A DNA stretch of 64,000 nt from contig ONUF01000001.1 in NCBI GenBank assembly GCA_900321005.1, positions 120,293 through 184,292 of the forward strand. The letters run 5' to 3'. Origin of the DNA: an uncultured Bacteroidales bacterium. GTDB lineage: Bacteria > Bacteroidota > Bacteroidia > Bacteroidales > Paludibacteraceae. Of the stretch, positions 5,113 through 63,556 are shown in pieces. The position numbers and the translations under genes were made by a program. Within the stretch, counting starts at the first letter, position 1. Each line of letters begins with the position of its first letter. Under the pieces are notes generated by a model. The model was not told the DNA's origin and did not search any database. It saw only the letters and a program-made list of their open reading frames with translations.

Positions 5113-5147
5113 AGGGCTAAGGGCTAATGGTTATTGGCTAATGGTTC
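5113..5147. repeat. heptamer array, 5 units
   Basis: Units AGGGCTA, AGGGCTA, ATGGTTA, TTGGCTA, ATGGTTC between the helicase start and the oxidoreductase stop. Confidence 0.85.
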
Positions 5148-5194
5148 GGTGCGTTTACTGCGTAGGCCGGAGATAAGTGATGCCACTACATCTA

Positions 5195-6742
5195 TTATTT
5201 CTCCCAGCCTTCGAATACTTCGGGTCCGAAGACATTGTCTTCGTCGGCATCGTGCAGCGGTGCCCACAGTTGCGCGAAGAACGGGTTCTGCTTTGCCACG
5301 CGGTCCCAGTGCCACGGCACTTGTTTCTCTTTGGGCTCAAAGGCGTACGGGTACGGCATGTCGAAAGGACTCCAGTGACCGCCGAGCAGAATCAGACGAC
5401 GACCGGCTTTGAAGGTATTGCCGTTCGCGTCCTGCCAGGTGTCGTTGCCCAAGTACTTGCCTCCGCGGAAGGCTGCGGCTTTGTTCAGTTCGGCATCGGT
5501 GAGTGTATCCACGTCTTTGGATTCATCGTAACCATGGTCCAACAAGACGGCCTCTTCGCTGTTATGACTTACATCGAAATGCTTCCAATCGGGAATGGCT
5601 TTGTATGCCTCCATCGAACCGTAATACGCATGAACGCGTTGCATCGCCTTGTCCCTTTCGACGTTCGTCCCTTCGCCATTCGCCTTTTTGATCCACCATT
5701 GGGTGCCGTGCTCTTTGCTGTTGGCCATGAACCACATGGCGGCTTTCACGCAATGTGGGAAGAGTTTAGCGATATGCGTCTTGGCGGCGAATTTGATACC
5801 GCCCGGCAGGGACTTGGCTTGTGCCATCTGCTTAAAATATTCCTTCACCGGCACATTCGCGCGGAAGTGCAGGAAGTCCTCCAGTTTATCTCCGTCGATG
5901 TACCACATGCCGTGGAAATTGCGGGTGGTGAACCAGTTGGCATTGAAGATCTTCTCGGGTTTCGGACATCCGATCGCATCGAGCAGCAACACTTCGAACT
6001 CGTAGTTCGACAGGCGGTACTCGGCACCCGAACCGATGTTATAGTAGTTGCGCCAGAATGCTTCCGGCACTTCGGGACGGCATACGCGCTCCAGAAGGCG
6101 TCCGCTGTCCTCTACCGTCGCCCATTCCAACACGCCGCGAATCGGCACATGGAACATGATCGGGTCGTAGTTCTTCAGAATGGCCGGGTATAAAATACCC
6201 GATTGACGAAGGGATGCCCATTTCTTAATACCTGAGTCGGTGATGATGCGTTCCGCCAAGGCTTTAGTCAGTCCGTAATGATCATACGCCGACACGCATA
6301 TCGGATCGCCCGCGCGACCCCAATGGAGTGGTTCGCGTCGGTCGCCCATCTGGGCTACCGAACCGATATAGACTACTTTCGGCTGCTTGTCTTCGGGCTG
6401 CGCCAACACCGCTTTGGTGATAAACTCTGCCGCGGTGATGTTCGTGCGTAAGGTTGCTTTCGGGCGATAGTCCGCCTGCGGCGAAACCATACCGCCTACA
6501 TGCAGCACGATATCTGCGCCCGTGACACCTTTCAGCACATCTTCGTATTTGGTGAGGTCACCCCAGATGATGTTTAATGTAGAATGTTGAATGTTTAAGG
6601 GGGTGAGTAACTCTTTGTTCTTCTTACTCGGCCGAGCGAGAATACGCAGTTCATACTGATCGGGGTACTTCAGGATTTCCATCATTCCTGCATACCCCAT
6701 GGTGCCTGTCGCACCGGTGAGGAAAACAATAGTTTTTGCCAT
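5195..6742 (-). CDS. NAD(P)-dependent epimerase/dehydratase-like oxidoreductase with C-terminal extension
   Basis: The 515-residue product opens with a Rossmann fold of the extended SDR type: TGATGTMG (9-16) binds the nucleotide and YDHYGLTK (153-160) contains the Y156xxxK160 catalytic pair. The N-terminal 300 residues resemble sugar-nucleotide epimerases. The last 200 residues are an extension without a motif that I recognise. The ATG at 6742 is chosen because it directly precedes the Rossmann strand (AKTIVFLTG). Residues about 46-58 (LTPLNIQHSTLNI) are encoded by a heptamer array. Substrate unknown. It lies between the helicase and antiporter genes, probably in one operon. Confidence 0.8.
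   Translation of the reverse strand: MAKTIVFLTGATGTMGYAGMMEILKYPDQYELRILARPSKKNKELLTPLNIQHSTLNIIWGDLTKYEDVLKGVTGADIVLHVGGMVSPQADYRPKATLRTNITAAEFITKAVLAQPEDKQPKVVYIGSVAQMGDRREPLHWGRAGDPICVSAYDHYGLTKALAERIITDSGIKKWASLRQSGILYPAILKNYDPIMFHVPIRGVLEWATVEDSGRLLERVCRPEVPEAFWRNYYNIGSGAEYRLSNYEFEVLLLDAIGCPKPEKIFNANWFTTRNFHGMWYIDGDKLEDFLHFRANVPVKEYFKQMAQAKSLPGGIKFAAKTHIAKLFPHCVKAAMWFMANSKEHGTQWWIKKANGEGTNVERDKAMQRVHAYYGSMEAYKAIPDWKHFDVSHNSEEAVLLDHGYDESKDVDTLTDAELNKAAAFRGGKYLGNDTWQDANGNTFKAGRRLILLGGHWSPFDMPYPYAFEPKEKQVPWHWDRVAKQNPFFAQLWAPLHDADEDNVFGPEVFEGWEK
6572..6599. repeat. heptamer array inside the oxidoreductase gene
   Basis: Units GTTTAAT, GTAGAAT, GTTGAAT, GTTTAAG, read on the minus strand as LNIQHSTLNI in a surface loop after the first Rossmann unit. 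Confidence 0.85.
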
Positions 6743-6778
6743 ATCAATTATCAATCATCAATTATCAATTATCAATCA
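6743..6778. repeat. heptamer array, 5 units
   Basis: Alternating ATCAATT and ATCAATC units fill nearly the whole gap between the antiporter stop and the oxidoreductase start. Confidence 0.88.
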
Positions 6779-8389: not shown

Positions 8390-8391
8390 CG

Positions 8392-8844: not shown

Positions 8845-8868
8845 ATTACGCCAAATTAAAATCGGGTA

Positions 8869-8899
8869 CAAAGGTAATACTTTTTTTGCACAAAACAAA
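8869..8899 (-). promoter_or_regulatory. promoter of the thioredoxin-like gene
   Basis: Minus strand TTTG (8896-8899), 19-nt spacer, TACCTTTG (8869-8876). It is back to back with the mdh promoter. Confidence 0.75.
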
Positions 8900-8926
8900 G
8901 AAAAAAATGCAATTATTCTTAAAAAA

Positions 8927-8958
8927 CTTGCATAAATCCAAAAAAAGTTGTACCTTTG
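8927..8958 (+). promoter_or_regulatory. promoter of mdh
   Basis: CTTG (8927-8930), 20-nt spacer starting CATAAATCCAA, TACCTTTG (8951-8958), about 70 nt before the mdh start. Confidence 0.78.
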
Positions 8959-9035
8959 CACGCTTTTTACTAAAAGATTTAGTAAATTAAGTCAAATAAC
9001 GCATAACGAACAATCATCTAAAATTCTATACAATT

Positions 9036-10004: not shown

Positions 10005-10015
10005 CAATTGATTTT

Positions 10016-11200: not shown

Positions 11201-11203
11201 GGA

Positions 11204-12811: not shown

Positions 12812-12825
12812 TGCCAAATTTTAAA

Positions 12826-12848
12826 ATCACCAATCACCAATCACCAAT
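12826..12848. repeat. heptamer array, 3 units
   Basis: ATCACCA repeated three times exactly in the leader of the MATE gene, directly before its GTG start. Confidence 0.9.
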
Positions 12849-14260: not shown

Positions 14261-15674
14261 CATCTTCGCGGAGATCTGTAAGGTTCCGCGCCCCTCTAAA
14301 CACGAGGAACAAATCAGTAAATGGCTGTGCGATTTCGCGGCTGCTCACGGTATCGAGTGTGTGGCCGACGAGGCCATGAACGTCATCATGCGCGTACCTC
14401 CTACGCCGGGCTACGAGGACCATGAAGGCGTCATTCTGCAAGCCCACATGGACATGGTCGCTGAGAAAGACGGACACGTGCAGCACGACTTCCTCAAAGA
14501 TCCTATCCAGACATGGATTGACGGCGAATGGCTGAAAGCAAAGGGTACCACCCTCGGCGCAGACGATGGTATAGGTATCAGTATGGCCCTTGCCGCTATC
14601 ACCGACCCGGACTTGCAACACCCCGCTATCGAGTGCCTCTTCACTGTCGATGAAGAGACAGGACTCACCGGCGCGATGAAGCTGCAAGACGGTATGCTGA
14701 AGTCCAAACGACTCATCAATCTCGACTCCGAAGACGACGGCCAGATCTTCATCGGTTGTGCCGGCGGTATCGACACCCTCGCGAAGATGCACTACGAGCA
14801 ATCACAAATCATCAATCATCAATCATCAATCGGAGTCCGCTTGTCGGTAAGCGGACTCACGGGCGGTCACTCGGGGGATGACATCAACAAAGGACGTGCG
14901 AACGCGAACCAGTTCATCGTGTGGTTCCTGGCGCGTATTTGGCCGCAGACGGAAGTGCAACTGGCGTCTATCAACGGCGGAAACCTTCGCAACGCGATCG
15001 CCCGCGAAGCGGAAGCTGTCATTGCTATCCCGATGGACTACAAAGAGCAGATTCGTATCGAGTGGAATCATTTCGTAGCCCAGATGGAAGGCGTCTTCGG
15101 AGAGGTAGAGAAGGATATGCGTCTGGAACTCGAGACCTGCGACCTGCCGGACTTCTTCATTCCTGCCGATAAAGCCTACCGACTCATCATGGCACTCTGC
15201 GAATGTCCGCACGGCATGATCGCTATGTCGAAAGAGATGCCGGGACTCGTGGAGACCAGTACCAACCTCGCGTCGATTAAGATGCGCGAGGGTTATATAG
15301 AGGTGAACACCTCGCAGCGTTCGTCCAAAGAACCCGCCAAGCATCACCTGAAGTGGGCGGTGGAGCAAGCGCTCTCGTTGGCTTGCGACGAGGTGACGCA
15401 CGGCGACGGTTATCCGGGTTGGGCACCGAACCCCAACTCGCCGCTGCTCGAAGTAGTGAAGAAAGCGTATGTGAACCTCTTTAAGGCAGAACCGAAAGTG
15501 CTGGCCATCCATGCCGGTCTGGAGTGCGGTCTGTTCCTCGAGAAATACCCGTACCTCGACATGATCTCCATTGGTCCGCAAATGGTCGGTGTCCACTCTC
15601 CGCAGGAGCGCCTCTCCATTCCTTCCACCGACCGCTGCTATAAATGGCTCTGCCAGACATTAAAATCACTATAA
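14238..15674 (+). CDS. pepD: cytosolic non-specific dipeptidase (aminoacyl-histidine dipeptidase)
   Basis: This 478-residue M20-family zinc peptidase hydrolyses dipeptides such as Xaa-His. Metal ligands and catalytic residues are visible: HMD in LQAHMDMVAEKD, D in GADDGIG, the general base pair EE in TVDEETGLTG, and a distal histidine near the C-terminus (MVGVHSPQERLS). Residues about 188-198 (SQIINHQSSIG) are encoded by a heptamer array. They sit between the catalytic half and the lid domain (VRLSVSGLTGGHSGDDI). The start overlaps the MATE gene by 23 nt. Confidence 0.94.
   Translation: MNTQRVFDIFAEICKVPRPSKHEEQISKWLCDFAAAHGIECVADEAMNVIMRVPPTPGYEDHEGVILQAHMDMVAEKDGHVQHDFLKDPIQTWIDGEWLKAKGTTLGADDGIGISMALAAITDPDLQHPAIECLFTVDEETGLTGAMKLQDGMLKSKRLINLDSEDDGQIFIGCAGGIDTLAKMHYEQSQIINHQSSIGVRLSVSGLTGGHSGDDINKGRANANQFIVWFLARIWPQTEVQLASINGGNLRNAIAREAEAVIAIPMDYKEQIRIEWNHFVAQMEGVFGEVEKDMRLELETCDLPDFFIPADKAYRLIMALCECPHGMIAMSKEMPGLVETSTNLASIKMREGYIEVNTSQRSSKEPAKHHLKWAVEQALSLACDEVTHGDGYPGWAPNPNSPLLEVVKKAYVNLFKAEPKVLAIHAGLECGLFLEKYPYLDMISIGPQMVGVHSPQERLSIPSTDRCYKWLCQTLKSL
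14801..14831. repeat. heptamer array inside pepD
   Basis: ATCACAA followed by three ATCATCA units and a partial unit, in frame, encoding SQIINHQSSI. Confidence 0.9.
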
Positions 15675-15730: not shown

Positions 15731-15758
15731 GTGCTGAATACTGAAAACTGAATGCTGA
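15731..15758. repeat. heptamer array carrying the feoB start codon
   Basis: GTGCTGA, ATACTGA, AAACTGA, ATGCTGA. The last unit is the ATG CTG A of feoB. Confidence 0.88.
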
Positions 15759-17422
15759 CCACTCATAAAATAGCCGTCATTGGTCTGCCGCAGAGCGGAA
15801 AGAGTTCGTTGACGAAGGCGCTGCAGGCCTTGGCCAAACCGCATGCCATTGAGTTTGTCGAGGTACATCACCCCGACGAACTGCACGGGCATACCTATGA
15901 TGTGGTGCTGCAGGTCGTGGACGCGACGCGCCTCGAGGAGTCGCTTCTCCTCACGCCGCATATCATCGACGAGCAGGAGAAGATCGTGCTGGCGATAGGT
16001 CGCTATGACTTGCTGCAAGCCACCGACCACTCGCTCGACATCCCCAAACTGGAGCAACTGATCGGCGTACCCACCTGCCGTGTGTCGGTTCGCTTGAACT
16101 ACGGTCTGCCGGAGTGTCTGGAGATCATCGAGCGCACGATCCACAAGCCCGCTTCGACGGCGCACCCGATTTATCACTTGCGCGACCAGGAGGATGAAGA
16201 CACCTATCGCGCGTACGTGCACGGTATCTTGACGGAGACGCTCACGCACGCGAAGGACGACAAACATCAGACGCGCCTCGAACGCATTGATAAAGTTCTC
16301 ACGAACCCCTGGCTCGGCTTCCCGATCATGATGGCGATTCTCTATTTCGTCTTCTGGTGCACCTTCACCCTCGGCGCGTATCCGCAGGAGTGGATAGAAG
16401 AGGGAATCGGGTTAATGAGTGAATGGCTGAGGGGACTGATGGATCCCAGCTGGTGGTCTTCCTTACTGATAGACGGTGTGTTGGCGGGCGTCGGCGCGGT
16501 GTTGGCATTCCTGCCGAACATCATCATCTTGTTTTTCTTTATCTCCCTTATGGAGGACTCGGGTTATATGGCCCGCGAGGCGTATATCATGGATGCCATC
16601 ATGCACCGGATCGGCCTGCACGGCCGCAGTTTCGTGCCGATGTTGATGGGGTTCGGCTGTAATGTGCCTGCTATCATGGCAGCGCGGGATATCCAGAATC
16701 CGAAGGACCGCGTGTTGACGATGCTCATGGTGCCGTTCATGTCGTGCTCGGCGCGCCTGCCGGTGTACATGCTCTTCGTGAGCGCCTTCTTTGCGGACCA
16801 CAAAGCGCTCGTGATGATCTCGCTCTACGCGATCGGCATATGCTTGTCGGTGCTCTTCGCATTGGTGATGAAGCGCACGAAATGGTTCAAGCAGGAGGAG
16901 GACGACACGGTCAACGAGTTGCCGGTCTTTAAACTGCCGAAGTTACACATCGCCGTAGCGCATATTTGGGAGAAAGTGGCGGATTATCTGCAGAAGATCT
17001 GCACGGTCATTCTCTGGGCATCCGTCATCATTTGGGCATTGGAATATTTCCCGACGCAAGACCTGAATGACTTAGAGCACTCCTATCTCGCATCGATCGG
17101 TCAGTTTGTCTCGCCGGCGCTCGCGCCCTTAGGTTTTGACTGGAAGATGTCTGTCTGCCTCATCACCGGTCTGCCGGCGAAGGAAGCGATCGTCTCCACG
17201 CTCGCGATTCTCTACGGCGGCGACATCTCTGCAGCAGGATTTACTCCCTTGACAGCCTTTACCTTCATGCTCTTCGTGCTGCTGTACTTCCCCTGCGTAG
17301 CCACCATTATGACGCTGCGCCGCGAGGCCGGAAGAGGCTGGGCATGGTTCACCGTATTCCACAGCCTGTTCTTGGCTTGGTTTATATCGTTTATCGTTTA
17401 TCAAATAGGAATGTTAGTATGA
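15752..17422 (+). CDS. feoB: FeoB-like Fe(II) transporter with eroded GTPase domain
   Basis: The 556-residue protein has the complete FeoB permease core (two Gate regions: GLHGRSFVPMLMGFGCNVPAI and, later, ITGLPAKEAIVSTLAILYG, with the conserved cysteines of GFGCNVP and FMSCSARLP), so ferrous iron uptake at the inner membrane is likely. The N-terminal G domain is short, about 130 residues. A P-loop (GLPQSGKSS, 11-19) and VVDAT survive. The switch I threonine and the G3 DxxG motif (normally DLPGTYSL) are missing, and G4 NxxD reads GRYD. GTP hydrolysis is therefore doubtful. The next gene overlaps its stop (ATGA). Confidence 0.87.
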   Translation: MLTTHKIAVIGLPQSGKSSLTKALQALAKPHAIEFVEVHHPDELHGHTYDVVLQVVDATRLEESLLLTPHIIDEQEKIVLAIGRYDLLQATDHSLDIPKLEQLIGVPTCRVSVRLNYGLPECLEIIERTIHKPASTAHPIYHLRDQEDEDTYRAYVHGILTETLTHAKDDKHQTRLERIDKVLTNPWLGFPIMMAILYFVFWCTFTLGAYPQEWIEEGIGLMSEWLRGLMDPSWWSSLLIDGVLAGVGAVLAFLPNIIILFFFISLMEDSGYMAREAYIMDAIMHRIGLHGRSFVPMLMGFGCNVPAIMAARDIQNPKDRVLTMLMVPFMSCSARLPVYMLFVSAFFADHKALVMISLYAIGICLSVLFALVMKRTKWFKQEEDDTVNELPVFKLPKLHIAVAHIWEKVADYLQKICTVILWASVIIWALEYFPTQDLNDLEHSYLASIGQFVSPALAPLGFDWKMSVCLITGLPAKEAIVSTLAILYGGDISAAGFTPLTAFTFMLFVLLYFPCVATIMTLRREAGRGWAWFTVFHSLFLAWFISFIVYQIGMLV

Positions 17423-27684: not shown

Positions 27685-27685
27685 A

Positions 27686-27724
27686 AATCACAAATCATCA
27701 ATTATCAATCATCAATCATCAATG
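27686..27724. repeat. heptamer array spanning the rfbC stop
   Basis: Units AATCACA, AATCATC, AATTATC, AATCATC, AATCATC. The rfbC C-terminus reads SIDD and its TGA inside this array. Confidence 0.9.
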
Positions 27725-39064: not shown

Positions 39065-39280
39065 TTTATCTGTTTAGCTGTTTGACTTTCTGTTGTTTGT
39101 TGTTTGGGCTTTTTTTAACTGTTTTTCCCATCGTTGTAGTTTCAAAATCAGGCCTAAACACTCCCCTGAAACAGACTGGAGACTATGAATCCTAGACTTT
39201 ATTCATTACTACATCCTTCTAACTACCTTATATTCAGCAACATACACGCAAAAAAATGCAGACGAAATTAAATTCACCTG

Positions 39281-47045: not shown

Positions 47046-48072
47046 TTTTATTGCACGATGTATTGAAATAGCCCGCCGCGGGGAGTATTTCGTAGCGCCC
47101 AATCCGATGGTGGGAGCGGTGCTGGTGCGCAACAGCGACGAACAGATTCTTGCGGAGGGTTGGCATGAGCGGTATGGCGAAGGACATGCGGAAGTGAACT
47201 GTTTCAAGCATTTCGAGAATACAGAATACAGAGTACAGAATACAGACCTATCTACATGCACTTTGTTTGTAAGTCTTGAACCATGCTCGCATTACGGGAA
47301 GACGCCGCCATGCGCGAAGTTGATCATAGAGAAAGGCGTGGGGCGCGTGGTGGTAGGAATGTTGGACCCAAATCCGCTGGTTGCCGGCAAAGGCGTGCAG
47401 ATGTTACGGGACGCGGGTATCGAAGTGGTGGTCGGTGTGTTAGAGAACGAATGCCGCGAGTTGAACAAACGCTTCCTGTGCCTGCATGAGAAGAAACGGC
47501 CGTATGTGATACTGAAATGGGCAGAGACTGCCGACGGATTCCTTGACCGAAACCGTCGGATTGAAGATTTAAGATTGAAGATTGAAGATTTGCACCTGAA
47601 CGGTGCGTTAGCGATCTCGACGCCGGAGACGAAGAAGATCGTGCATCGTATGCGGGCGGAGAATATGGCGATCATGGTGGGCACGAACACGGTGCTGCTC
47701 GATAATCCCCGTTTGCTCAACACCCACTGGGAGGGACGCAACCCCATCCGCGTGACCTTGGACAGGCACAACCGGATACCTGCCGACGCCCGGATTTTTT
47801 CCGATGGAATCGAGACAATCGTGTATCGCGAGCGTACGGACTGGCCGTATGTGCTGTCGGACCTGGCGAGCCGGAATATCCACTCGATACTCGTAGAAGG
47901 CGGAGCGACGCTGCTGAACCATATTCTCGAGGCCGGAATATGGGATGAGATACACGTGGAGGTGGCGCCGGAGATCACGATAGGCGAGGGTGTGGCGGCG
48001 CCGAAAATAGCGTTGCCGGAGGCGTTTGAGACCGTCGATGGACATCGGTTGTACACGATTGTAAGAAAATAA
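47032..48072 (+). CDS. ribD: riboflavin biosynthesis deaminase/reductase
   Basis: This 346-residue bifunctional enzyme carries out the second and third steps of riboflavin synthesis. The N-terminal deaminase shows the zinc ligands HAE (52-54) and PCSHYGKTPPC (84-94); the C-terminal reductase shows LKWAETADGF, NTVLLDNPRL and VEGGATLLNHIL. Two heptamer arrays encode insertions at residues about 62-72 (ENTEYRVQNTD, between the zinc motifs) and 174-188 (RRIEDLRLKIEDLHL, in the reductase after ADGFLDR). Start at the ATG 47032 gives the standard N-terminus (EYANFIARCIEIA). Confidence 0.95.
   Translation: MEYANFIARCIEIARRGEYFVAPNPMVGAVLVRNSDEQILAEGWHERYGEGHAEVNCFKHFENTEYRVQNTDLSTCTLFVSLEPCSHYGKTPPCAKLIIEKGVGRVVVGMLDPNPLVAGKGVQMLRDAGIEVVVGVLENECRELNKRFLCLHEKKRPYVILKWAETADGFLDRNRRIEDLRLKIEDLHLNGALAISTPETKKIVHRMRAENMAIMVGTNTVLLDNPRLLNTHWEGRNPIRVTLDRHNRIPADARIFSDGIETIVYRERTDWPYVLSDLASRNIHSILVEGGATLLNHILEAGIWDEIHVEVAPEITIGEGVAAPKIALPEAFETVDGHRLYTIVRK
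47217..47247. repeat. heptamer array inside ribD (deaminase part)
   Basis: GAATACA, GAATACA, GAGTACA, GAATACA, in frame, encoding ENTEYRVQNTD. Confidence 0.92.
47559..47593. repeat. heptamer array inside ribD (reductase part)
   Basis: GATTGAA, GATTTAA, GATTGAA, GATTGAA, GATTTGC, in frame, encoding RIEDLRLKIEDLH. Confidence 0.92.
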
Positions 48073-50295: not shown

Positions 50296-51803
50296 TCTTC
50301 ATATTACTGCAGACGATGGTGTATCTGGAGCGGTCGGAGACGCTGAGTTTTGACCAGGATCGCATCGCCGACGCACAGATTCTTCGGGGAAACGTGCGCT
50401 TCCGGCATGACGATGCGCTTATGTTCTGCGACAGCGCGTATTTCTACGAGACGACCAACTCGCTGGATGCGTTCGGGCATGTGCGTTTCGAGCAAGGCGA
50501 CACCTTACAGGGTTTCTGCGACCGGTTGTACTACAACGGCAACACCAAGCTCGCGCGTATGCGCCGGCATGTACGGATGGTACACGGGCGGGAGCAGGAG
50601 AACCCCACGGTGCTGACGACCGACAGTCTGAACTACGACCGTGCGCGGGGCGTGGCGTATTACTACTCGGGCGGCGTCATTCAGGACTCGCTCAACACCC
50701 TCACTTCCGTTCGCGGGCAGTACGTGCCGAACACCAAACAGGCGCTATTCCGGCAAGAGGTGCACCTGACGAACCCCAATTTCGTGCTGACGAGTGACAC
50801 GCTGATCTACCATACGGATACGAAGGTGGCGAATATCGTCAGTCCGACGACGATCCTGTACGAAGAGAAGACGACGATCACTACTTCGCGCGGGTGGTAC
50901 AACACGGACAGCGAGCAGTCGATGCTGCTGGACCGGTCGCTGGTGAAGCATAAAGACGGCAAGTCGATGACGGGTGACACGATCTATTACGACAAGAAGA
51001 TCGGTTTTGGCAAGGTGTTGGGCCGCATGGAGATGCGCGACACGGCGCAGCGGGCGACGCTCTACGGCGAGTACGGACAGATGTACGAAGAATACAGCCG
51101 CGGCTATGCGACCGACAGTGCGTTGATGGTGGACTGGTCCGACAGCGTACATGTGGCGTATATACACGCCGACACGTTGTTCACGGAAGAGTTGCATTTT
51201 GCGGACTCAGCCCTGGCGGACAGCACTTACCGGCGCGTGCGCGCTCACCACAAGGCGCGTATATATAGAGATGACATGCAGATGGTGTGCGACTCGATGG
51301 TGTATCTGGGTTCGGACTCGACGATCCACCTCTACACGACACCTATCTGCTGGAACAACAACCAACAGATCGCGGCGGATAGTATCGTGGTGTATATCGT
51401 CAACGGGGCAGTGGATCATGCGGTAGGTGCACCGAACGCGATATGCGTGCTGCAGGACACACTCGATATCTTCGACCAGATGAGCGGCAAGGAGATCACG
51501 GCGTACCTGACCGACGGCGAGGTGCATACGATAGACGTGAGCGGCAATGCGTTGACGATCTACTATCCGAGGGATGAAGAAGACGGCAGTTATGTGGGGA
51601 TGAACACGACGGAGAGCAGTTATATCCGCGCGTATGTGCGAAACCGGAATATCTACCGCCTGCGGTTCACCAAAGAGACCACGGGAATCCTCTTCCCGCT
51701 CGACCAGATTCCCGGCGGCGCCGATCGACTGGCGGATTTCTTCTGGGCGGAAGACATACGACCGATCAGTCCGGAGGATGTATTCCGTAAGATTGATGAT
51801 TGA
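50283..51803 (+). CDS. OstA/LptA-like organic solvent tolerance protein
   Basis: The 506-residue protein consists of LptA/OstA-type beta-jelly-roll units (ILRGNVRFRHDDALMFCDSA, DSLDAFGHVRFEQGDTLQG, TSDTLIYHTDTKVANIV, TGDTIYYDKKIGFGKVLGRM). Such proteins bridge lipopolysaccharide transport in the periplasm. The start is a GTG at 50283 inside the surA end; the leader MATLIFILLQTMVYL is a weak signal peptide. The last codons (RKIDD, stop) come from a heptamer array. Bacteroidetes often have such a long multi-unit OstA protein. Confidence 0.85.
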   Translation: MATLIFILLQTMVYLERSETLSFDQDRIADAQILRGNVRFRHDDALMFCDSAYFYETTNSLDAFGHVRFEQGDTLQGFCDRLYYNGNTKLARMRRHVRMVHGREQENPTVLTTDSLNYDRARGVAYYYSGGVIQDSLNTLTSVRGQYVPNTKQALFRQEVHLTNPNFVLTSDTLIYHTDTKVANIVSPTTILYEEKTTITTSRGWYNTDSEQSMLLDRSLVKHKDGKSMTGDTIYYDKKIGFGKVLGRMEMRDTAQRATLYGEYGQMYEEYSRGYATDSALMVDWSDSVHVAYIHADTLFTEELHFADSALADSTYRRVRAHHKARIYRDDMQMVCDSMVYLGSDSTIHLYTTPICWNNNQQIAADSIVVYIVNGAVDHAVGAPNAICVLQDTLDIFDQMSGKEITAYLTDGEVHTIDVSGNALTIYYPRDEEDGSYVGMNTTESSYIRAYVRNRNIYRLRFTKETTGILFPLDQIPGGADRLADFFWAEDIRPISPEDVFRKIDD

Positions 51804-51815
51804 TAATTGATGATT
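51791..51815. repeat. heptamer array spanning the OstA-like stop
   Basis: GATT, then GATGATT, GATAATT, GATGATT. The reading frame ends KIDD-stop inside the array, the same ending as rfbC (SIDD-stop). Confidence 0.88.
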
Positions 51816-52576: not shown

Positions 52577-52577
52577 G

Positions 52578-54569
52578 ATGATTCCTCGCGAAACCATAGA
52601 ACGCATCTACGCTGCGGCGAAGATTGAAGAGGTCGTCAGCGATTATGTCACGCTTCGCAAGCGCGGCGCGAACCTCATCGGGCTCTGTCCTTTCCACAAC
52701 GAGAAGACGGGTTCGTTCACCGTCAGTCCGTCGAAAGGTATCTATAAATGCTTCGGATGCGGCGCGAGCGGTCATGCCGTCGGTTTCATCATGGAGATCG
52801 AGCAGTGCTCGTATGTGGATGCGCTCAAGCAACTCGGCAAGAAATACCACATCGAGATCGAGGAACGCGAGATGACGGCCGAGGAACAGCAGCGACAGGA
52901 CAACCGCGAGTCGATGTTCATCGTCAATGAGTTTGCGAACCAATGGTTTCAGGACCAGTTATGGGAGACGCCCGAAGGTCAGGCGATCGGTCTGAGTTAT
53001 TTCCGCGAACGCGGACTGAGGGACGATATCATCCGTAAGTACCAACTCGGTTACTCGCCGGAGAAAGGCAGTCCCTTGGCGGCGGCCCTGAAGAAGAAAG
53101 GCTTCAAAGAGGAGTTCATCACCAATGACGTGGATACGAAGATCGGTGTCGGTGTGGTGGGTAAGAGTGAAGACGGCCGGCTCTACGACCGCTTCCGCGA
53201 CCGCGTCATCTTCCCTATCTTCACCGTCAGCGGCAAACCCGTCGCTTTCGCAGGGCGTATTCTGAAGAAGAAAGACAATGTAGGCAAGTACGTCAACTCG
53301 CCGGACAGTCTGATCTATTCGAAGACCAACGAGTTGTACGGTCTCTTCCAAGCCAAACAAGCTATCGCGCGGGCGGACATGTGCTACCTGGTGGAAGGTC
53401 AGATGGACGTGATCTCCATGCATCAGTCGGGTATAGAGAATGTAGTGGCGAGCGGTGGTACGGCGCTGACGAAACCCCAGATACGACTTATCCAGCGCTT
53501 CACGAGTAATATCACGGTGCTGTATGACGGCGATGCGGCGGGTATCCACGCGGCGCTGCGCGGTATCGACATGTTCCTGGAGGAGGGCTTTAATGTGAAG
53601 GTGGTGCTGCTGCCCGACGGCGAAGACCCCGACAGCTATGCGCAGACCCACGACTCGACGGAGTTTATTCGGTATATAGAGGAAAACCAGACGGACTTCA
53701 TCCGTTTCAAGTCGGCGCTCTTGAGCAAGGATGCCGGCGACGACCCGCAGAAACGCGCGGCGCTCATCAAAGATATCACGTCGTCTATCGCCATCATTCC
53801 GGACCTGATCACACGGCAGGTGTATATCAAAGACAGCGCGGAGCGACTCCATATGAGTGAGAAAGTGCTGACGATGGAGGTGATGAACCTGCGCCGCAAG
53901 AAAGCCGAAGAACGCGCGAAGGCGAAGGAGCACGCGGAACAGGAGCAGGCGACTACGATAACACCGGCGGAAAATCAGAGTACTCCGAATAATCAGAGTA
54001 TTCCGAGTACTTCGAAGACTCAGACTGCGCCGATAGCGCCGAAGAAACCCAAGACGGCGCTGGAGCAGAATTATTATAACTTGCTGCAGCTGGTGGTTCG
54101 CTACGGCGAGCGGTTGATGGAGGTGGAGGGTACGATATACACGATCGGCGAGATCATCATCTACACCCTCGAGGGCGATGAGATCCAGCCGCCACAACCG
54201 GTGTATCAGACTGTCATTGACGAGTTCAAACGGCACTGCAAGGACGCAGATTTCAAGGCGGAGACGTTCTATAAGTTCCATCCCGATCCTGCGGTCAGTG
54301 CACTTGCTGTCGATATGATTGCCGAGCAATACCAGGCGGATGCGCCGAAAGACGAGGCGCGCTTGGGCGAACTGGTGACACAGTTGCTCTACGAGATCAA
54401 ACTGACGGTTATCAATATGCAGATCGCGGATTTGGAGGCAGACCTCAAAGAGGCGCAAGCCAAGAACGATGTCGATCGCCAGATGCTGCTGTTGCAACAC
54501 CATCCGCAACTGCTCGCGCAGCGCAATGAGATATGCAAACTGCTCGGCAACCGCATTATCAACCTCTGA
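52578..54569 (+). CDS. dnaG: DNA primase
   Basis: The 663-residue protein makes RNA primers for replication. The zinc-binding domain has C37, H40, C58 and C61 (CPFHNEKTGSF, KCFGCGASG). The catalytic Toprim part has VEGQMDVISMHQSG and LYDGDAAG (about 270-320). The C-terminal region is long and poorly conserved. A linker at residues about 465-483 (ENQSTPNNQSIPSTSKTQT) is encoded by a 9-bp repeat array. It starts 1 nt after the barrel gene stop. Confidence 0.95.
   Translation: MIPRETIERIYAAAKIEEVVSDYVTLRKRGANLIGLCPFHNEKTGSFTVSPSKGIYKCFGCGASGHAVGFIMEIEQCSYVDALKQLGKKYHIEIEEREMTAEEQQRQDNRESMFIVNEFANQWFQDQLWETPEGQAIGLSYFRERGLRDDIIRKYQLGYSPEKGSPLAAALKKKGFKEEFITNDVDTKIGVGVVGKSEDGRLYDRFRDRVIFPIFTVSGKPVAFAGRILKKKDNVGKYVNSPDSLIYSKTNELYGLFQAKQAIARADMCYLVEGQMDVISMHQSGIENVVASGGTALTKPQIRLIQRFTSNITVLYDGDAAGIHAALRGIDMFLEEGFNVKVVLLPDGEDPDSYAQTHDSTEFIRYIEENQTDFIRFKSALLSKDAGDDPQKRAALIKDITSSIAIIPDLITRQVYIKDSAERLHMSEKVLTMEVMNLRRKKAEERAKAKEHAEQEQATTITPAENQSTPNNQSIPSTSKTQTAPIAPKKPKTALEQNYYNLLQLVVRYGERLMEVEGTIYTIGEIIIYTLEGDEIQPPQPVYQTVIDEFKRHCKDADFKAETFYKFHPDPAVSALAVDMIAEQYQADAPKDEARLGELVTQLLYEIKLTVINMQIADLEADLKEAQAKNDVDRQMLLLQHHPQLLAQRNEICKLLGNRIINL
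53973..54026. repeat. 9-bp repeat array inside dnaG
   Basis: Six nonamers of the types AATCAGAGT and ACTCCGAAT, in frame, in the linker before the helicase-binding end. The same units occur at 55931-55975. Confidence 0.88.
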
Positions 54570-54593
54570 TTACTGAATACTGACGACTGAATG
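54566..54593. repeat. heptamer array bridging dnaG stop and next start
   Basis: CTGATTA, CTGAATA, CTGACGA, CTGAATG. The first unit contains the dnaG TGA; the last supplies the ATG of the radical SAM gene. Confidence 0.9.
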
Positions 54594-55358: not shown

Positions 55359-56362
55359 AGATTCTCGTTGCACCACTGAACTGGGGGCTGGGACATGCCA
55401 GCCGTTGTGTGCCGCTGGTGCACCGTTTTTTGGAGCAAGGCCATGAAGTCATCTTAGGAGGTGACGGCGAGAGTCTGACACTACTTCGCAAGCATTTTCC
55501 AAAACTGAGATATGTCTATCTGGCACCGCTTAACCTGCGGTACAGCAAAGGTTCCCGTCAAGTGGGCGCGATGCTTTGTGCCATGCCTAAACTGCTTTGG
55601 TGGGCGGTCAAAGACCATGCGATTCTTAAGGCGGTTCTAAAAGAGGAACACATCGACCGGATTTTATCGGATAATCGCTTTGGGCTATACACCAATCACC
55701 AATGTGACTGCGTCTATCTGACGCATCAGTTGCATATCATGCTGCCGAAGGGTTGGCGGTGGTTGGAACCGCTTGCTGCGCGCCTGCACGCACGTATATA
55801 TACGCGATATAATAAGGTGTGGGTGCCGGATTATGAGGAACCGGAAAAGAGTCTTGCGGGCGAGTTGAGTCATCCGACAGTAATCAGTAATCAGCATTCA
55901 GTGATCAGTTATATCGATCCGCTGAGCCGATTTGATCAGAGGATTCCGAATAATCAGAGTACTCCGAGTGCCCCGAAATATGAGGTGGTGGCGGTACTGA
56001 GTGGATTGGAACCGCAGCGTACGATGCTGGAGAAAGAGTTGTTGGCGCGGTATCAGGACACCGAGCAGTCGGTGCTGATAGTACAGGGTCTGATGTATCG
56101 GCCGAACACCCGTCTCAAGCGGGGAAAAATAAGCATTGTGCCGCATATGGACGACGCGGAACTGACGGCGGCTTTGATGGGTGCAAAACACATCATCGTT
56201 CGCTCCGGATACTCGACGATTATGGACCTGAATGCCTTGGGTTTGTTGGATGCAGAAAAGGGAAACAGCAAGGTGCAGATAGAGCTCCTTCCGACGCCCG
56301 GACAGCCCGAGCAGGAGTACTTGGCAGCGAGATTTTTAGAAAAAAACGCAGAAAAGTGCTAA
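55355..56362 (+). CDS. MurG-like glycosyltransferase
   Basis: The 335-residue protein shows a GT-B fold: N-terminal MKILVAPLNWGLGHASRCVP, a central VLSGLEPQRTMLEKELL, and the C-terminal nucleotide-sugar site MGAKHIIVRSGYSTIMDLNALG (like the MurG/GT28 acceptor). Substrate unknown; surface or lipid-linked glycan is likely. Two arrays lie in its middle: heptamers at residues about 175-186 (TVISNQHSVISY) and nonamers at 192-207 (FDQRIPNNQSTPSAP), between the two Rossmann lobes. Confidence 0.83.
   Translation: MKILVAPLNWGLGHASRCVPLVHRFLEQGHEVILGGDGESLTLLRKHFPKLRYVYLAPLNLRYSKGSRQVGAMLCAMPKLLWWAVKDHAILKAVLKEEHIDRILSDNRFGLYTNHQCDCVYLTHQLHIMLPKGWRWLEPLAARLHARIYTRYNKVWVPDYEEPEKSLAGELSHPTVISNQHSVISYIDPLSRFDQRIPNNQSTPSAPKYEVVAVLSGLEPQRTMLEKELLARYQDTEQSVLIVQGLMYRPNTRLKRGKISIVPHMDDAELTAALMGAKHIIVRSGYSTIMDLNALGLLDAEKGNSKVQIELLPTPGQPEQEYLAARFLEKNAEKC
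55878..55912. repeat. heptamer array inside the glycosyltransferase gene
   Basis: CAGTAAT, CAGTAAT, CAGCATT, CAGTGAT, CAGTTAT, in frame, encoding VISNQHSVISY. Confidence 0.92.
55931..55975. repeat. 9-bp repeat array inside the glycosyltransferase gene
   Basis: TTTGATCAG, AGGATTCCG, AATAATCAG, AGTACTCCG, AGTGCCCCG, in frame. Shares exact units with the dnaG array. Confidence 0.85.
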
Positions 56363-57046: not shown

Positions 57047-59643
<2,597 letters not shown>

Positions 59644-59661
59644 CAAATAACACATATTCTT

Positions 59662-60975
59662 ATGAATCTATTTACGGCCAGATTAACCGGCAAAATGCTC
59701 TCTACCGAGCAATTTGAGAAAACCATCTATGACATGCAAGAGCGTGTTAAACGCTGGCGTCAGATTGAGAAATCGCCTGAATTGGCGGAGTACAATGCGT
59801 TGAAGAAGATCGTTGAGAGCAGCGATTTCCAGGCACGCAAGAAAGAACTGGTATCGCGTAAGTACAAGGACACGGATGAGGGTCGCAAGATGACGGCGTA
59901 CCTGCATCTGGAGGGTTCGAGCGCCATCCGCCGGTATAAGAAAGCGCTGGAGGATCCTCAGTTCCAGGAGTTCCTGAAGTTCCGCGAGACGCCGGAGTTC
60001 GCGAAGATCAAGAGCCTGAAGGCGGTCTTGACGGATTCCAAAATCCGTGCGTATAACATGCTGTATTACTCGTCGTATTACAAGAACTACACCAAGGTGC
60101 TCAATTCGGCAGAACTGCGTCAGTTGACGGAGTTGGAGAAAGAGGTGAAGACAGCTGATTTCAAACAGCGTCACGACCTGTGGGCGGACAACAAGCGCTG
60201 GCAGCACTCGGAGGAGTATAAGCAAGAGAAGCGCTACCTGGAGTTGGCCAATTCGGACGATATCAAGTTCTTCTTCGAGTCCCGCAAAGAGAAGATCGAC
60301 TGGGCAGAGCTCTTCCGTCCGGCTTTCGACGACGACATGTCGAGTGCCAAGAACTGGAAACCGGGTTTCGGCTATGCCAATCCGGCGATGAAGGACGGTC
60401 ATTCGCGCACCACGGAACGTCAGGCGTATAATGGCGGCAAGAACACCTTCCATGTAGAAGGTCGTATGGATATCGAGACGCGCGAGGAGAGTAAGATCGC
60501 GGTGGCATGGGACGAGAAGAAAGGCTTCATCGAGCAGGTGTTTGATTTTACCTCCGATGTGATGAATACCAAGGAGGCTTTTGCGCAAGAGAGTGGTCTG
60601 TTCATGGCCAAAGTGCGTAGCCAGGGAGCAGGTCATCATTTCTTCGGTCTGACAACAGGCAAGGTAAAGAGTCCGATCATCGCGCTCTATCATTACAATG
60701 GAAAGAACCACCAGATGGGCCTTGTCAACGGCAAGGACACGAAGATGGCGGATATCAACGGCGTGCTGCGCTCGATGTATCACGTGTATTCCTTCCGCTG
60801 GACGAAGCACGAGTTGATCTGGTACGTCAATAACCTCGAGATCCTTCGTCTGCCGAACCGTCTGCCGAAAGAGGCGATGTTCTTTTTGGCGCAGAGTTGG
60901 CTGCCGAAGAATGAGAAGGGTGGCGAAGGCAAACTGAAAGTGCAGTGGGCACGCGTCTATAAAGCCGTAGACTGA
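59662..60975 (+). CDS. 437-residue protein: helical repeats plus GH16/LamG-like domain
   Basis: No signal peptide is visible. Residues about 15-215 are predicted helical repeats of some 30 residues of the form SxELxEYxxLKKxVExxDFxxRKxEL, rich in Lys, Glu and Tyr. Residues about 220-437 look like a concanavalin-type sandwich (FHVEGRMDIETREESKIAVA, FFGLTTGKVKSPIIALYHYN, YHVYSFRWTKHELIWYVNNL), resembling GH16 or LamG domains. The GH16 catalytic ExDxxE is not obvious. A cytoplasmic protein with such a domain is unusual. Function unknown. Confidence 0.7.
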   Translation: MNLFTARLTGKMLSTEQFEKTIYDMQERVKRWRQIEKSPELAEYNALKKIVESSDFQARKKELVSRKYKDTDEGRKMTAYLHLEGSSAIRRYKKALEDPQFQEFLKFRETPEFAKIKSLKAVLTDSKIRAYNMLYYSSYYKNYTKVLNSAELRQLTELEKEVKTADFKQRHDLWADNKRWQHSEEYKQEKRYLELANSDDIKFFFESRKEKIDWAELFRPAFDDDMSSAKNWKPGFGYANPAMKDGHSRTTERQAYNGGKNTFHVEGRMDIETREESKIAVAWDEKKGFIEQVFDFTSDVMNTKEAFAQESGLFMAKVRSQGAGHHFFGLTTGKVKSPIIALYHYNGKNHQMGLVNGKDTKMADINGVLRSMYHVYSFRWTKHELIWYVNNLEILRLPNRLPKEAMFFLAQSWLPKNEKGGEGKLKVQWARVYKAVD

Positions 60976-61002
60976 TAACTGATTACTGATAACTGAAAGC
61001 TG
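60972..61002. repeat. heptamer array spanning the stop of the GH16-like gene
   Basis: CTGATAA, CTGATTA, CTGATAA, CTGAAAG. The stop TGA (60973-60975) is inside the first unit; kdsA starts 6 nt after the array. Confidence 0.92.
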
Positions 61003-61007
61003 CTCTT

Positions 61008-61790
61008 ATGTTCCTCATCAGCGGCCCGTGTGCGATAGAGAATAGAGATGTTGTGATGCAGACGGCAGAAACGCTGCGGCGTCTATGCTATGACCTCGGT
61101 ATCACGCTCTATTTCAAGTCTTCTTTCGACAAGGCGAACCGTACTTCCGCTTCTGCCCGTGGTGTGGGTATGGACGAAGGACTGCGGATTCTCGAAGAAG
61201 TGAAGACGCAACTGGGGCTGCCTATCCTGACGGATGTGCATGAGAGCGCGCAGTGTGCGCCGGTGGCAGAAGTGGCGGATGTGCTGCAGATACCGGCGTT
61301 CTTAAGTCGCCAGACCGACCTGCTGCAAGCCGCTGCGGCTACGGGTCGGATCGTCAACGTGAAGAAAGGTCAGTTCATGGCGCCTTGGGATCTCGGCGGT
61401 GCGATAGAGAAGATCGAGCAGGTGGCGCCGGGCGCAGCGCGGGAAGGACATGTGTGGTTGACAGAGCGCGGTTCGTCCTTCGGCTACGGCCGACTGGTGG
61501 TCGATATGACCTCGCTGGTGGAGATGCGCCGTTTCGGATGTCCGGTGATCTTCGACGCTACGCATGCCGTGCAGCAACCGTCGAGTTCAGACGGTATCAC
61601 GGGCGGTAATCGTGAGATGGTGCCTTACCTGATGCGCGCCGCCTTGGCGGTCGGTATCGATGGACTGTTCATCGAGACGCATCCCGAACCCGAGAAAGCT
61701 ATCTCCGATGCCGCTAACCAAGTGCGGTTGTCGGACATGCGCAACCTGCTGACGCAGGCGCTGGAGATAGATGCTCTCGTTAATCGTTAA
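61008..61790 (+). CDS. kdsA: 3-deoxy-8-phosphooctulonate synthase
   Basis: The 260-residue enzyme condenses phosphoenolpyruvate and arabinose 5-phosphate to Kdo-8-phosphate for LPS. It shows SGPCAIEN, FKSSFDKANRTS, NVKKGQFMAPWD, TERGSSFGYGRLVVDM and FDATHAVQQP, ending with GLFIETHPEP. The metal-independent type has Asn in the NVKKGQF segment (N at the cysteine position of metal types), consistent here. Its last codons overlap a heptamer array. Confidence 0.95.
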   Translation: MFLISGPCAIENRDVVMQTAETLRRLCYDLGITLYFKSSFDKANRTSASARGVGMDEGLRILEEVKTQLGLPILTDVHESAQCAPVAEVADVLQIPAFLSRQTDLLQAAAATGRIVNVKKGQFMAPWDLGGAIEKIEQVAPGAAREGHVWLTERGSSFGYGRLVVDMTSLVEMRRFGCPVIFDATHAVQQPSSSDGITGGNREMVPYLMRAALAVGIDGLFIETHPEPEKAISDAANQVRLSDMRNLLTQALEIDALVNR

Positions 61791-61810
61791 ACGCTAATTG
61801 CTAATAACTC
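61779..61810. repeat. heptamer array spanning the kdsA stop
   Basis: GTTAATC, GTTAAAC, GCTAATT, GCTAATA, encoding the end LVNR and stop of kdsA, then running to the next start. Confidence 0.85.
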
Positions 61811-61815
61811 ATCAT

Positions 61816-63510
61816 ATGGAGAAGACCATTACCGTTTATTGCAAGAACACGCACACGTATCACGAAGTGCCGCGGGGAATCTCGCTGATTGAACTCAAGG
61901 ACCGCTTGGGTATCCAGTTGAAATATCCGATCATCGCGGCGCTGGTGAATTATCAGGTGGAGAACTTGGATTTCTTGCTCTACAAACCCAAAGATGTGGA
62001 GTTTTTGGATGCCAGTAACCCGGCCGGCATGCGTGCGTATGTGCGTACCCTGAGCATGGTGTTAGGCGCAGCGGTGAATGAGTTATATCCGGAGATGGAC
62101 ATGCGCGTAGAGCACCCGATCAGCAAGGGTTATTACTGCACGCTCCAGTGGCATATGGACAAAGAGACCGATCCGGGAGACGAGAAAGAACCGCCCATTA
62201 TGACGCGTGAGATGGTGAAGGCGATCAAGGAGCGGATGCTGCAGATCATCGCGGAGGACCGGCCTATCATCGAAGAGGAGAAGCAGACAAAAGAGGTGAT
62301 CAAGATGTTCGCTGAGCGCTATAACAACGAGTCATCTATCTTCGAGGCGCTGGGCAACCCCTACTGCCGTTATTTCCGGATGGGCGATTATATCGACTAT
62401 TACACGAATGTGTTGCTGCCCAGTTCGGGCTATATCAATGTATTCGACATTCGCCTCTTCCAGGACGGTCTGTTGGTTCGTATCCCGAATCGTAACAACC
62501 CGACGGTGCTCGAAGATGAGGTGACGCAGGATAAGATGTTCTCCATCTTCCAGGAGTACAACCGCTGGAACAAACTGCTGCGCATCAATAATGTCAGTGA
62601 CTTCAATGTGGCGTGCAAACAGAATAAATCCTTTGAGTTGATCAAATTGGCGGAGGCGCTGCACGAGAAGAAGATCGCGCAGATAGCCGATGCTATTGCT
62701 GAGAAGCGGCCGAAGATTGTCTTTATCTCCGGAGCTTCGTCTTCCGGAAAGACTACTTTCTCCAAACGACTCCAGATACAGTTGCTGGTGGACGGGGTGC
62801 GCCCGGAGGTGCTCTCGATGGATGACTATTTCGTCAACCGTGTGGACACTCCGAAGGACGAGAACGGCGTATGGGACTTCGAGCATGTGGAGGCGGTCGA
62901 TCTGCCGTTCTTCCGTCAGCAGATGCACGACCTGCTGGACGGCAAAGAGGTGGATCTGCCTACGTATGACTTCACCAAGGGTGAGCGGGTGTTCCGGGGC
63001 AATAAACTGAAACTGCAGAAAGACTCTGTGCTGGTGATCGAAGGACTCCATGCCCTCAATCCGTGCATCCTGCCGGATGTGGACAAAGACCTGACCTTTA
63101 AGATTTATGTCTCTGCGCTGACGACTATCAATATTGACAACCATAACTGGATACCGACAACCGACATCCGTCTGCTGCGCCGCGTGGTTCGCGACTACAA
63201 ATACCGCGGTTATTCGGCGCGCGAGACGATTGCCCGTTGTCCGTCTGTCATACGTGGCGAGACGAGGTGGGTCTATCCGTTCCAAGAAGAAGCGGATGTG
63301 ATGTTCAACTCCGCGCTTATCTTCGAGTTCGCCGTCCTCAAGCGGCATGCCGAGCCGATACTGCAAGAAGTACCGAAGTTCTGCGACGAATATACGGAGG
63401 CACACAGGCTGCTTAAGTTCCTGCAATATTTCGTTCCCATACCCGAGCGTGAGATACCGCCTACTTCGTTCCTGCGTGAGTTCGTCGGCGGTTCGTCCTT
63501 CCGCTATTAA
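61816..63510 (+). CDS. uridine-kinase-like protein with TGS and tRNA-synthetase second-additional-like domains
   Basis: The 564-residue protein starts with a TGS domain (ITVYCKNTHTYHEVPRGISL, about 1-65), then a region like the second additional domain of threonyl-tRNA synthetase (MVLGAAVNELYPEMDMRVEH), then a P-loop kinase domain of the uridine/phosphoribulokinase type (Walker A GASSSGKTTFSK, about 303-314; VLSMDDYFVNRVDTPKD; VIEGLHALNP). This fused nucleoside kinase is typical of Bacteroidota and Firmicutes. The phosphate acceptor is not certain. The ATG at 61816 is chosen over 61798 because it starts the TGS domain. Confidence 0.88.
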   Translation: MEKTITVYCKNTHTYHEVPRGISLIELKDRLGIQLKYPIIAALVNYQVENLDFLLYKPKDVEFLDASNPAGMRAYVRTLSMVLGAAVNELYPEMDMRVEHPISKGYYCTLQWHMDKETDPGDEKEPPIMTREMVKAIKERMLQIIAEDRPIIEEEKQTKEVIKMFAERYNNESSIFEALGNPYCRYFRMGDYIDYYTNVLLPSSGYINVFDIRLFQDGLLVRIPNRNNPTVLEDEVTQDKMFSIFQEYNRWNKLLRINNVSDFNVACKQNKSFELIKLAEALHEKKIAQIADAIAEKRPKIVFISGASSSGKTTFSKRLQIQLLVDGVRPEVLSMDDYFVNRVDTPKDENGVWDFEHVEAVDLPFFRQQMHDLLDGKEVDLPTYDFTKGERVFRGNKLKLQKDSVLVIEGLHALNPCILPDVDKDLTFKIYVSALTTINIDNHNWIPTTDIRLLRRVVRDYKYRGYSARETIARCPSVIRGETRWVYPFQEEADVMFNSALIFEFAVLKRHAEPILQEVPKFCDEYTEAHRLLKFLQYFVPIPEREIPPTSFLREFVGGSSFRY

Positions 63511-63521
63511 ACGGCACGATT

Positions 63522-63556
63522 TTTGAAAGTTTAAAGTTAAAAGTTTAAAGTTGAAA
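63522..63556. repeat. heptamer array carrying the TTG start of the SPOR gene
   Basis: TTTGAAA-like flank, then GTTTAAA, GTTAAAA, GTTTAAA, GTTGAAA. The TTG AAA in the last unit is the likely start. Confidence 0.85.

Follow-up and report, generated by a model that had tools for sequence, protein, structure and literature searches.

Tandem heptamer arrays at gene junctions and in protein loops of a Paludibacteraceae genome and its relatives

Introduction

Heptanucleotide repeats are already known as a kind from cyanobacteria, Xanthomonas and Beggiatoaceae; they have been reported in several phyla, and the cause of the number seven is unsettled. The short tandemly repeated repetitive (STRR) heptamers of cyanobacteria, for instance, are degenerate, dispersed units in which some positions are fixed and others free. 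Here, we describe short, degenerate 7-bp tandem arrays in a stretch of 64,000 nucleotides from an uncultured Bacteroidales bacterium of the Paludibacteraceae (contig ONUF01000001.1 of assembly GCA_900321005.1, positions 120,293 to 184,292; the whole stretch is called the window below), as well as in the rest of the sampled source genome and in its relatives, which carry our own labels beginning with G or L. These arrays lie at gene junctions and within conserved genes such as prmC and ribD, and sites within genes are frequently occupied in related species by an array of a different unit.

In most genomes surveyed, according to the passages cited, long repeats with a 7-nt unit are more abundant than any others, and slippage related to polymerase contacts has been proposed for this preference (Mrazek et al. 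2007, cited in PMC4679880, PMC4692102). In the P6b stem-loop of the Nostoc trnL intron, two heptamer classes (TDNGATT and NNTGAGT) are described as alternating, and repeated replacement was inferred (PMC4476775). Direct repeats of TAACTGA are reported from Beggiatoaceae, cyanobacteria and five Bacteroidetes (PMC4679880).

Period and abundance of the arrays

Arrays were detected by a lag scan (match +1, mismatch -2 along a 7-bp lag), in which a score of at least 9 defined an array in the window and a stricter cut-off of at least 10 was used for the wider-genome and multi-genome counts; 20 order-4 Markov simulations for the window and 3 Markov simulations for the exact-copy count served as the null. 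The window contains 25 period-7 arrays against a simulated mean of 0.3, whereas the rest of periods 4-13 gave 0-3 arrays each. Multiples of seven were also conspicuous (14 arrays at period 14 and 8 at period 21), and the next-highest periods up to 30 were 30 (5 arrays) and 24 (4). Tandem Repeats Finder, which is independent of the lag scan, returned 27 period-7 rows. A preliminary description, made from the sequence alone, had counted 26 arrays, a figure that both programs closely reproduce, and had named shuffled sequence as a test of the family; simulated sequence yields almost no arrays. The wider period scan that it proposed gave 35 period-7 arrays at the stricter cut-off in 247 kb of the same genome outside the window, the remaining periods 4-13 giving 0-10.

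The 7-base specificity claimed in that description was most evident in exact copies. Across 703 kb from 12 genomes (the source genome and 11 relatives), runs of at least three exact copies numbered 30 at period 7 and none in the three simulations, with two such runs at most for each remaining period in the range 5-20. Two-copy exact tandems were likewise in excess at period 7 (175 vs 49 simulated); an excess was also present at periods 6 (327 vs 182) and 9 (20 vs 3), chiefly in coding sequence, as well as at 8 (33 vs 19), 11 (14 vs 0.7) and the multiple 14 (18 vs 0), and periods 4 and 5 did not rise above expectation. By the window and 12-genome counts, tandem units of exactly 7 nt occur above chance. 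Chance, base composition or assembly error can hardly be credited as the origin of the arrays, considering the 25 arrays found against 0.3 expected, the length of the window arrays (just 16-43 bp) and the recurrence of the pattern in many separate assemblies.

Placement and orientation

Gene-based counts rely on a home-made gene caller, whose called coding density was 0.887 (89% of the sequence) and which missed prmC in 6 of the 11 stretches where tblastn finds it, so that further missed genes are possible. The missed prmC genes were added for the main in-gene, junction, insertion, re-use and stop-word counts, and arrays within them were treated as non-coding in the array density per kb, in the count of array-bearing junctions and in the tally of unit matches over all 119 shared sites. 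The nearest pair compared is 87.4% identical, and relatives were sampled at 20-40 kb each.

Only 51 of the 141 arrays scoring at least 10 in the 12 genomes lie well within genes (45 without the missed prmC), despite the large called coding fraction. Array bases amount to 2.5 per kb in the interiors of coding sequences and 23.9 per kb elsewhere, an approximately nine-fold difference that agrees with the enrichment at gene ends noted in the preliminary description. Among 291 short junctions between same-strand genes (-20 to 80 bp), 50 bear an array.

Orientation is also biased. The unit contains a stop word on the sense strand in 48 of 72 same-strand junction arrays and in 10 of 51 in-gene arrays, compared with 27/72 and 30/51, respectively, in the antisense control (discordant arrays: p = 0.005 for junctions, p = 0.0008 within genes). 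Selection on stop codons would produce such a pattern; the other 24 of the 72 junction units have no sense stop word. A sequence-specific regulatory element at operon junctions, comparable to TAACTGA in Beggiatoaceae, for which a role in translation has been proposed, would fit both the enrichment between the stop and the start of same-strand genes and the frequent sense stop words there. In addition, the window array at 60971 is TAACTGA in rotated form, and a post-transcriptional regulator is suggested for that unit in the passages cited (PMC4679880). Such an element is nevertheless improbable: orthologous junctions often carry an unrelated unit or are array-free (91 of 127 have none), identical units also occur in frame within genes, and the change of unit at shared sites argues against it.

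Insertion and re-use of sites

Junctions bearing an array are longer than their array-free orthologues, the median excess being 20 bp (91 comparisons; quartiles at 6.5 and 38 bp), and the median difference for control junctions is 0 (164 comparisons). Without the missed prmC the median excess is 18 bp (128 comparisons). In the alignments at 12825, 19092 and 27681, relatives lack blocks of approximately 23, 33 and 38 bp. Junction arrays are thus mostly net insertions, and the shorter array-free junctions, together with the orientation bias, accord with the earlier proposal of insertion filtered by selection. Within genes, 33 sites with array-free orthologues (from 48 arrays examined) show median excesses of -1 to 13 aa, a set in which several entries are the same PrmC or RibD site across species and some have a single orthologue.

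Sites within genes are re-used far more often than control positions. An array was also present at 83 of 235 orthologous in-gene positions, as opposed to 44 of 1239 random control positions; by site, the figures are 23/36 vs 22/393, and without the missed prmC 63/178 positions and 19/30 sites. All of these site and pair counts are partly non-independent, given that species are compared in a directed manner and that a single PrmC or RibD site enters the counts from several of them. In the 83 directed in-gene comparisons, units matched at all seven positions in 17, at six in 8, at five in 4 and at two to four in 54, while 80% of random unit pairs match at no more than four positions and 1.5% at all seven. 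Some shared-site arrays are common to species, and most pairs look unrelated in unit.

Other sequences occupy the same places. GC-rich palindrome-like stretches (CCCCGACCC...GGGAAGGGAG) are found in G022, G007 and UBA4331 in loops that carry heptamers in the source genome; by site, they occur in L151 (PrmC and RibD), L154 (PrmC) and L058 (RibD), and a strict form of the pattern had only two matches in the subclade A stretches searched (the subclades are defined below), both in L151. They represent another repeat that makes use of these tolerant sites. The in-frame palindromic elements of Rickettsia are similar in spirit. An AGACCG core, which may mark a third type of repeat, was seen by eye only at the PrmC and RibD loop sites of L140, L142 and L150.

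PrmC and RibD

The two enzymes illustrate how the in-gene arrays are placed and changed. The structure models have a mean predicted local distance difference test score (pLDDT) of 88.3 for PrmC and 88.0 for RibD. In PrmC, the arrays at residues 119-132 (the linker) and 271-278 occupy stretches that separate secondary-structure elements and in which confidence falls to 70-76; the third (residues 21-29) falls within the N-terminal helix 6-31. In RibD, the array at 188-199 coincides with the least confident block of the model (51) and that at 74-84 is flanked by a helix and a strand and modelled with good confidence. The first description, of arrays that keep the frame within tolerant regions of housekeeping proteins, is borne out; its loop-only placing was too strong a statement, given the PrmC array at 46960 in the modelled helix.

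Comparison with other proteins gives a mixed picture of length. At the 271-278 site, PrmC has 13 aa more than six of its seven array-free orthologues, and in a comparison with the solved RibD 2hxv, gaps of 15 and 5 residues stand opposite the second and the first RibD array, respectively. The PrmC linker array meets a gap of only 2 residues against 4dzr, and in several array-bearing relatives the linker is no longer than in array-free outgroups. The distant PrmC orthologues compared do not carry the array residues, and the orthologue test suggested at the outset did not refute the family.

Changed units are seen in the same two proteins. In window orientation, the PrmC linker unit is GATTGCT here, ATTTGAT in G003 and G006, ACCTTTA-like in G015 and TTGACGA-like in G030. 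The coding unit at RibD 188-199 is GATTGAA here and in G035, and GGACAAT in G026, G002 and G004. Protein-level selection that builds linker or loop peptides, the DNA period being a by-product, would account for the similar NQQS-like peptides encoded by many in-gene arrays of the source genome and for the several arrays in modelled loops. However, the heptamers are read in each of the three frames, noncoding junctions contain the same units and one loop holds different peptides in relatives, which makes this explanation very improbable. PrmC residues 202-209 (MVNDQMVN; window 46418-46441) also look like a degenerate heptamer stretch under the detection limit.

Unit families and the origin of the arrays

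Array units are AT-rich (68% A+T), and the commonest, AATCATC, accounts for 9 of the 141 arrays. A GATTG core is common to 8 of 22 window arrays and to 19 of 57 arrays sampled in the source genome. In 66 copies of this family, the sixth position is A in 29, G in 17, C in 12 and T in 8, and the second is always A; within arrays, position 6 varies in 11 of 19 and position 2 in none. This contrast is descriptive, and it is informative because the choice of the core fixes the consensus and not the variation among copies. With its free sixth position, the family shows the trait of the STRR heptamers (degenerate, dispersed units with fixed and free positions), to which the arrays had been likened from the start.

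Identical units are more frequent within genomes than between them (39 of 1728 pairs vs 61 of 6528; label permutation p = 0.0012), with 32 of the 39 within-genome pairs coming from the source genome, where random junction words would be expected to agree in 0.15% of pairs. AATCATC arrays alone number 6 of 54, whereas local words would predict 0.09. On this excess, the seeding of units at random from local words was rejected. The earlier view that each array was seeded by its own local word consequently fails, since identical units recur at unlinked loci; the related view that every locus has its own unit holds only in part, given the GATTG core.

The best explanation is probably a 7-nt duplication and expansion that is tolerated at junctions and permissive loops, turns over and is largely neutral; we favour it, and period, placement, orientation and changes of unit would all follow from it. 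A genome-wide process with a preferred 7-nt step, most likely replication slippage, would generate new arrays, which at junctions would mostly be net insertions. Arrays would persist where extra DNA is tolerated, namely in short same-strand gaps, often across a stop codon, and in permissive protein loops and linkers, where they would be kept in frame and in a mostly stop-free orientation. They would be born, lost and reborn, repeated birth being a likelier source of the changed units than fast drift, so that a tolerant site would often be refilled with a different unit in a related species. Most of them would be close to neutral, with no regulatory role that depends on their sequence. Easy expansion would be confined to a limited set of units, and every genome has its own favourites.

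Several observations weigh against this explanation. The units are no random sample of local words, and variation among copies clusters at particular unit positions common across loci; plain slippage predicts neither. At 9 of the 33 in-gene sites, the protein exceeds its array-free orthologues by a median of at most 1 aa, so simple insertion cannot cover all in-gene cases, and insertion alone was rejected as the origin of every in-gene array. Junction re-use is close to the control rate (36/127 vs 51/215); at the 36 shared junction sites, units match at three or four of seven positions in 20 and at all seven in 5. The PrmC linkers of L060 and L037, two more distant members of the genus, carry CTGATTG, which is the unit of the source genome rotated, on the same strand, and nearer species do not match it. 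This may be an old state, the outcome of transfer or a case of convergence on a favoured unit, and it does not suit a simple account of unrelated units; because some units are identical between species, these two included, inheritance, transfer or convergence would also contribute. Finally, no repair or polymerase family tested tracks array density. Genome-favoured units, shared variable positions and little-changed loop lengths are left unaccounted for by slippage and neutral turnover, and therefore leave room for copying between loci.

A self-spreading family, in which units are copied between loci by ectopic conversion, template switching or templated addition and an active family replaces whole arrays, is a clearly less likely alternative. 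It would explain the within-genome excess of identical units and of AATCATC, the GATTG-family copies that vary mainly at one unit position across loci, and the loops that are hardly longer. It would also explain the distribution of matches over all 119 shared sites, with an excess at 7/7 (18% vs 1.5% random) and 6/7 (11% vs 4%) and a deficit at 5/7 (8% vs 15%). On the other hand, no enzyme or template turned up, no search having been aimed at one; many unit families stand side by side in one genome, junction arrays resemble plain insertions, the favourite units could also be explained by sequence-dependent expansion, and most of the within-genome identical pairs come from a single genome. In its most specific form, which we regard as a shade less likely again, these would be minimal self-spreading repeats, each genome having its own active skeleton; copies of it would be written genome-wide into tolerant sites, loops of essential enzymes among them, and would replace older arrays there, in some cases leaving loop length almost unchanged. 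In the source genome, that skeleton would be the GATTG core, which mostly takes the form GATTGNT and leaves one position free.

Distribution among relatives

The loci closest by RibD belong to uncultured Paludibacteraceae or Bacteroidales assemblies, several of whose titles name ruminant stomach and one horse faeces. With RibD identity rather than a tree as the criterion, 11 genomes were assigned to subclade A (at least 75%) and 13 genomes of the same genus to subclade B (at most 69%); they contain 84 arrays in 400 kb and 25 arrays in 400 kb, respectively. Array density across the genomes of both subclades ranges from 0 to 0.38 per kb, and no arrays were found in the 17-21 kb around ribD of three close relatives (L053, L056 and L057). 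In 64 more distant loci (1.07 Mb, excluding the extreme L112 and the duplicate L071), period 7 gave 43 arrays against 1 to 9 at periods 5, 8, 10, 11 and 13; periods 6, 9 and 12 gave 17, 35 and 31. From these densities and counts, a weak heptamer excess is widespread and a strong excess is patchy.

Arrays of 11 bp are as numerous in subclade B as those of 7 bp (25 each in 400 kb; L156, L158, L159, L152 and L153), and the favoured repeat length may accordingly differ between lineages. In L112, a distant Bacteroidetes contig (Loclat_bin-16290), 12 arrays of related AAGGCNC/CCTTGNG units lie at 2376-7590 within 7.7 kb; they include the PrmC linker, which is again a heptamer array (2734-2793, with overlapping arrays at 2732-2763 and 2777-2808).

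Candidate determinants of array density were also compared. Mismatch-repair loss was rejected as a cause, as a MutS domain is present in 60 of 61 genomes (the exception being 54% complete) and MutL in 24 of 25. The presence of a Y-family polymerase received no support (present in 19 genomes, absent from 6; p = 0.059 for all genomes and 0.60 for subclade B alone). Of 25 genomes, just two, G016 and G023, both of them array-poor, have an SbcD nuclease that passes the curated cut-off; it is a weak lead, given that other array-poor genomes lack SbcD.

Arrays in the window

The window arrays are listed in Table 1. At the stricter cut-off (n = 22), 8 lie in coding genes (5 by the gene caller and 3 in the missed prmC) and 14 at or near gene ends, among which the array at 17385 sits just within the 3' end of its gene.

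Table 1. Period-7 arrays detected in the 64-kb window
Array	Position	Strand	Context and comparison
TAAGGGC-type	5111..5144		intergenic; lag scan and Tandem Repeats Finder
heptamer array	6576..6595		inside minus-strand gene 5195-6754
TATCAAT x5	6742..6776		junction of two minus-strand genes, the upstream one a Na/H exchanger family protein
ATCATAA-type	9979..10008		gene junction
AATCACC x3.4	12825..12848		5 bp ahead of MatE gene; orthologous junction in G006 array-free, 23 bp shorter
AATCATC x4.6	14800..14831		in frame; unrelated AGAGGTT-like array at same site in G006
CTGAATA-type	15734..15752		extends into start of FeoB-like gene
TATCGTT	17385..17402		close to 3' end of FeoB-like gene
TTGTTCG	17478..17497		gene start
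TTTAGCC	17847..17870		gene 3' end
GCCATTC/CCTTTCG	19092..19118		gene 3' end; ~33 bp missing in G006 and G002, missing too in G030
TCATCAA x6	27681..27723		junction; ~38 bp missing in G035 and G030; G002 array shorter
TGTTGTT x2.3	39091..39106		borderline score
GATGATT x3	46212..46232	-	prmC; residues 271-278, modelled loop
GATTGCT x5.7	46649..46688	-	prmC; residues 119-132, directly ahead of methyltransferase domain; other heptamer arrays at this site in many relatives, same unit in L060 and L037
ATTGGAT-type	46960..46984	-	prmC; near N-terminus, modelled helix 6-31
AGAATAC x4.4	47216..47246	+	ribD; residues 74-84; different units there in G003 and G004
GATTGAA x4.6	47559..47590	+	ribD; residues 188-199, lowest-confidence loop of model
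GATTGAT x3.6	51791..51815		across stop of OstA/LptA-like gene; unit shared with G015, replaced by another in G035
CTGATTA-type	54566..54590		across dnaG stop
CAGTAAT x3	55878..55901	+	in frame, gene 55355-56362
CAAATAA	59637..59656		across stop codon
ACTGATA x3.7 (TAACTGA rotated)	60971..60996		junction ahead of DAHP synthase gene
TCGTTAA-type	61777..61805		across stop of DAHP synthase gene
AAAGTTT x4.7	63526..63558		junction; lag scan and Tandem Repeats Finder

The near-absence of arrays from a block of surface-type proteins, remarked on in the preliminary description, holds: the block 19130-45676, whose limits were picked after the arrays were seen, contains 2 of the 25 arrays against 16.3 expected from the remaining window (P = 1.3e-5), and 4 of the 27 Tandem Repeats Finder rows (27681, 35009, 35036 and 39091). 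Its 7 large proteins that were scanned comprise two BspA-type leucine-rich-repeat proteins, one OmpA-family protein and four without a Pfam match. Phase-variable contingency repeats are concentrated in surface-protein genes, whereas the window arrays are depleted in this block. A 24-bp repeat of approximately three copies was also seen within the OmpA-family gene (window 24784-24857).

Comparison with known heptamer systems

With its dozens of species, array densities that are high in some and low in others and loops refilled by different units, the genus offers a natural experiment on the birth, spread and filtering of repeats, and heptamer arrays are a means by which loops and linkers of conserved enzymes, PrmC and RibD among them, change rapidly. 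The 7-nt unit is shared with the long simple repeats of Mrazek et al., as cited above, but the arrays here are degenerate, lie partly in housekeeping genes and have sites that are refilled with new units. The Geobacter metallireducens elements, four tandem heptanucleotides at 49 locations, are likewise both intergenic and intragenic; however, they form one alignable consensus, and the passages cited describe no unit turnover (PMC2700814). The GGGAATC-type repeats of Xanthomonas and Nostoc are also degenerate, lie mostly between the same genes in two species and vary in length and sequence, but, as described there, they are G-rich with quadruplex potential, while the units here are AT-rich (PMC4692102).

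The TAACTGA repeats resemble the present arrays in their junction placement. They provide stops in all frames in sense orientation, and their in-gene copies are mostly reversed; of the same-strand junction units here, 48 of 72 carry a sense stop word. As far as the cited passages go, that study concerns one unit, related heptamers being rare, whereas many units occur here and orthologous sites differ (PMC4679880). No dominant TAACTGA unit is present in our set, in which its canonical form, AACTGAT, accounts for 2 of 141 arrays. A change of unit class at one site is also described for the Nostoc P6b stem-loop. The passages cited place that replacement in one structured RNA loop; here, by contrast, it involves many protein loops and junctions and many unit classes (PMC4476775). 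The GATT core also resembles the class I motif TDNGATT of that intron, by eye only. No description of in-frame heptamer arrays re-occupying protein loops was found in the literature searched, subscription papers being mostly outside reach. What is new here, relative to these systems, is that arrays keep their site while changing their unit in the protein loops of housekeeping enzymes.

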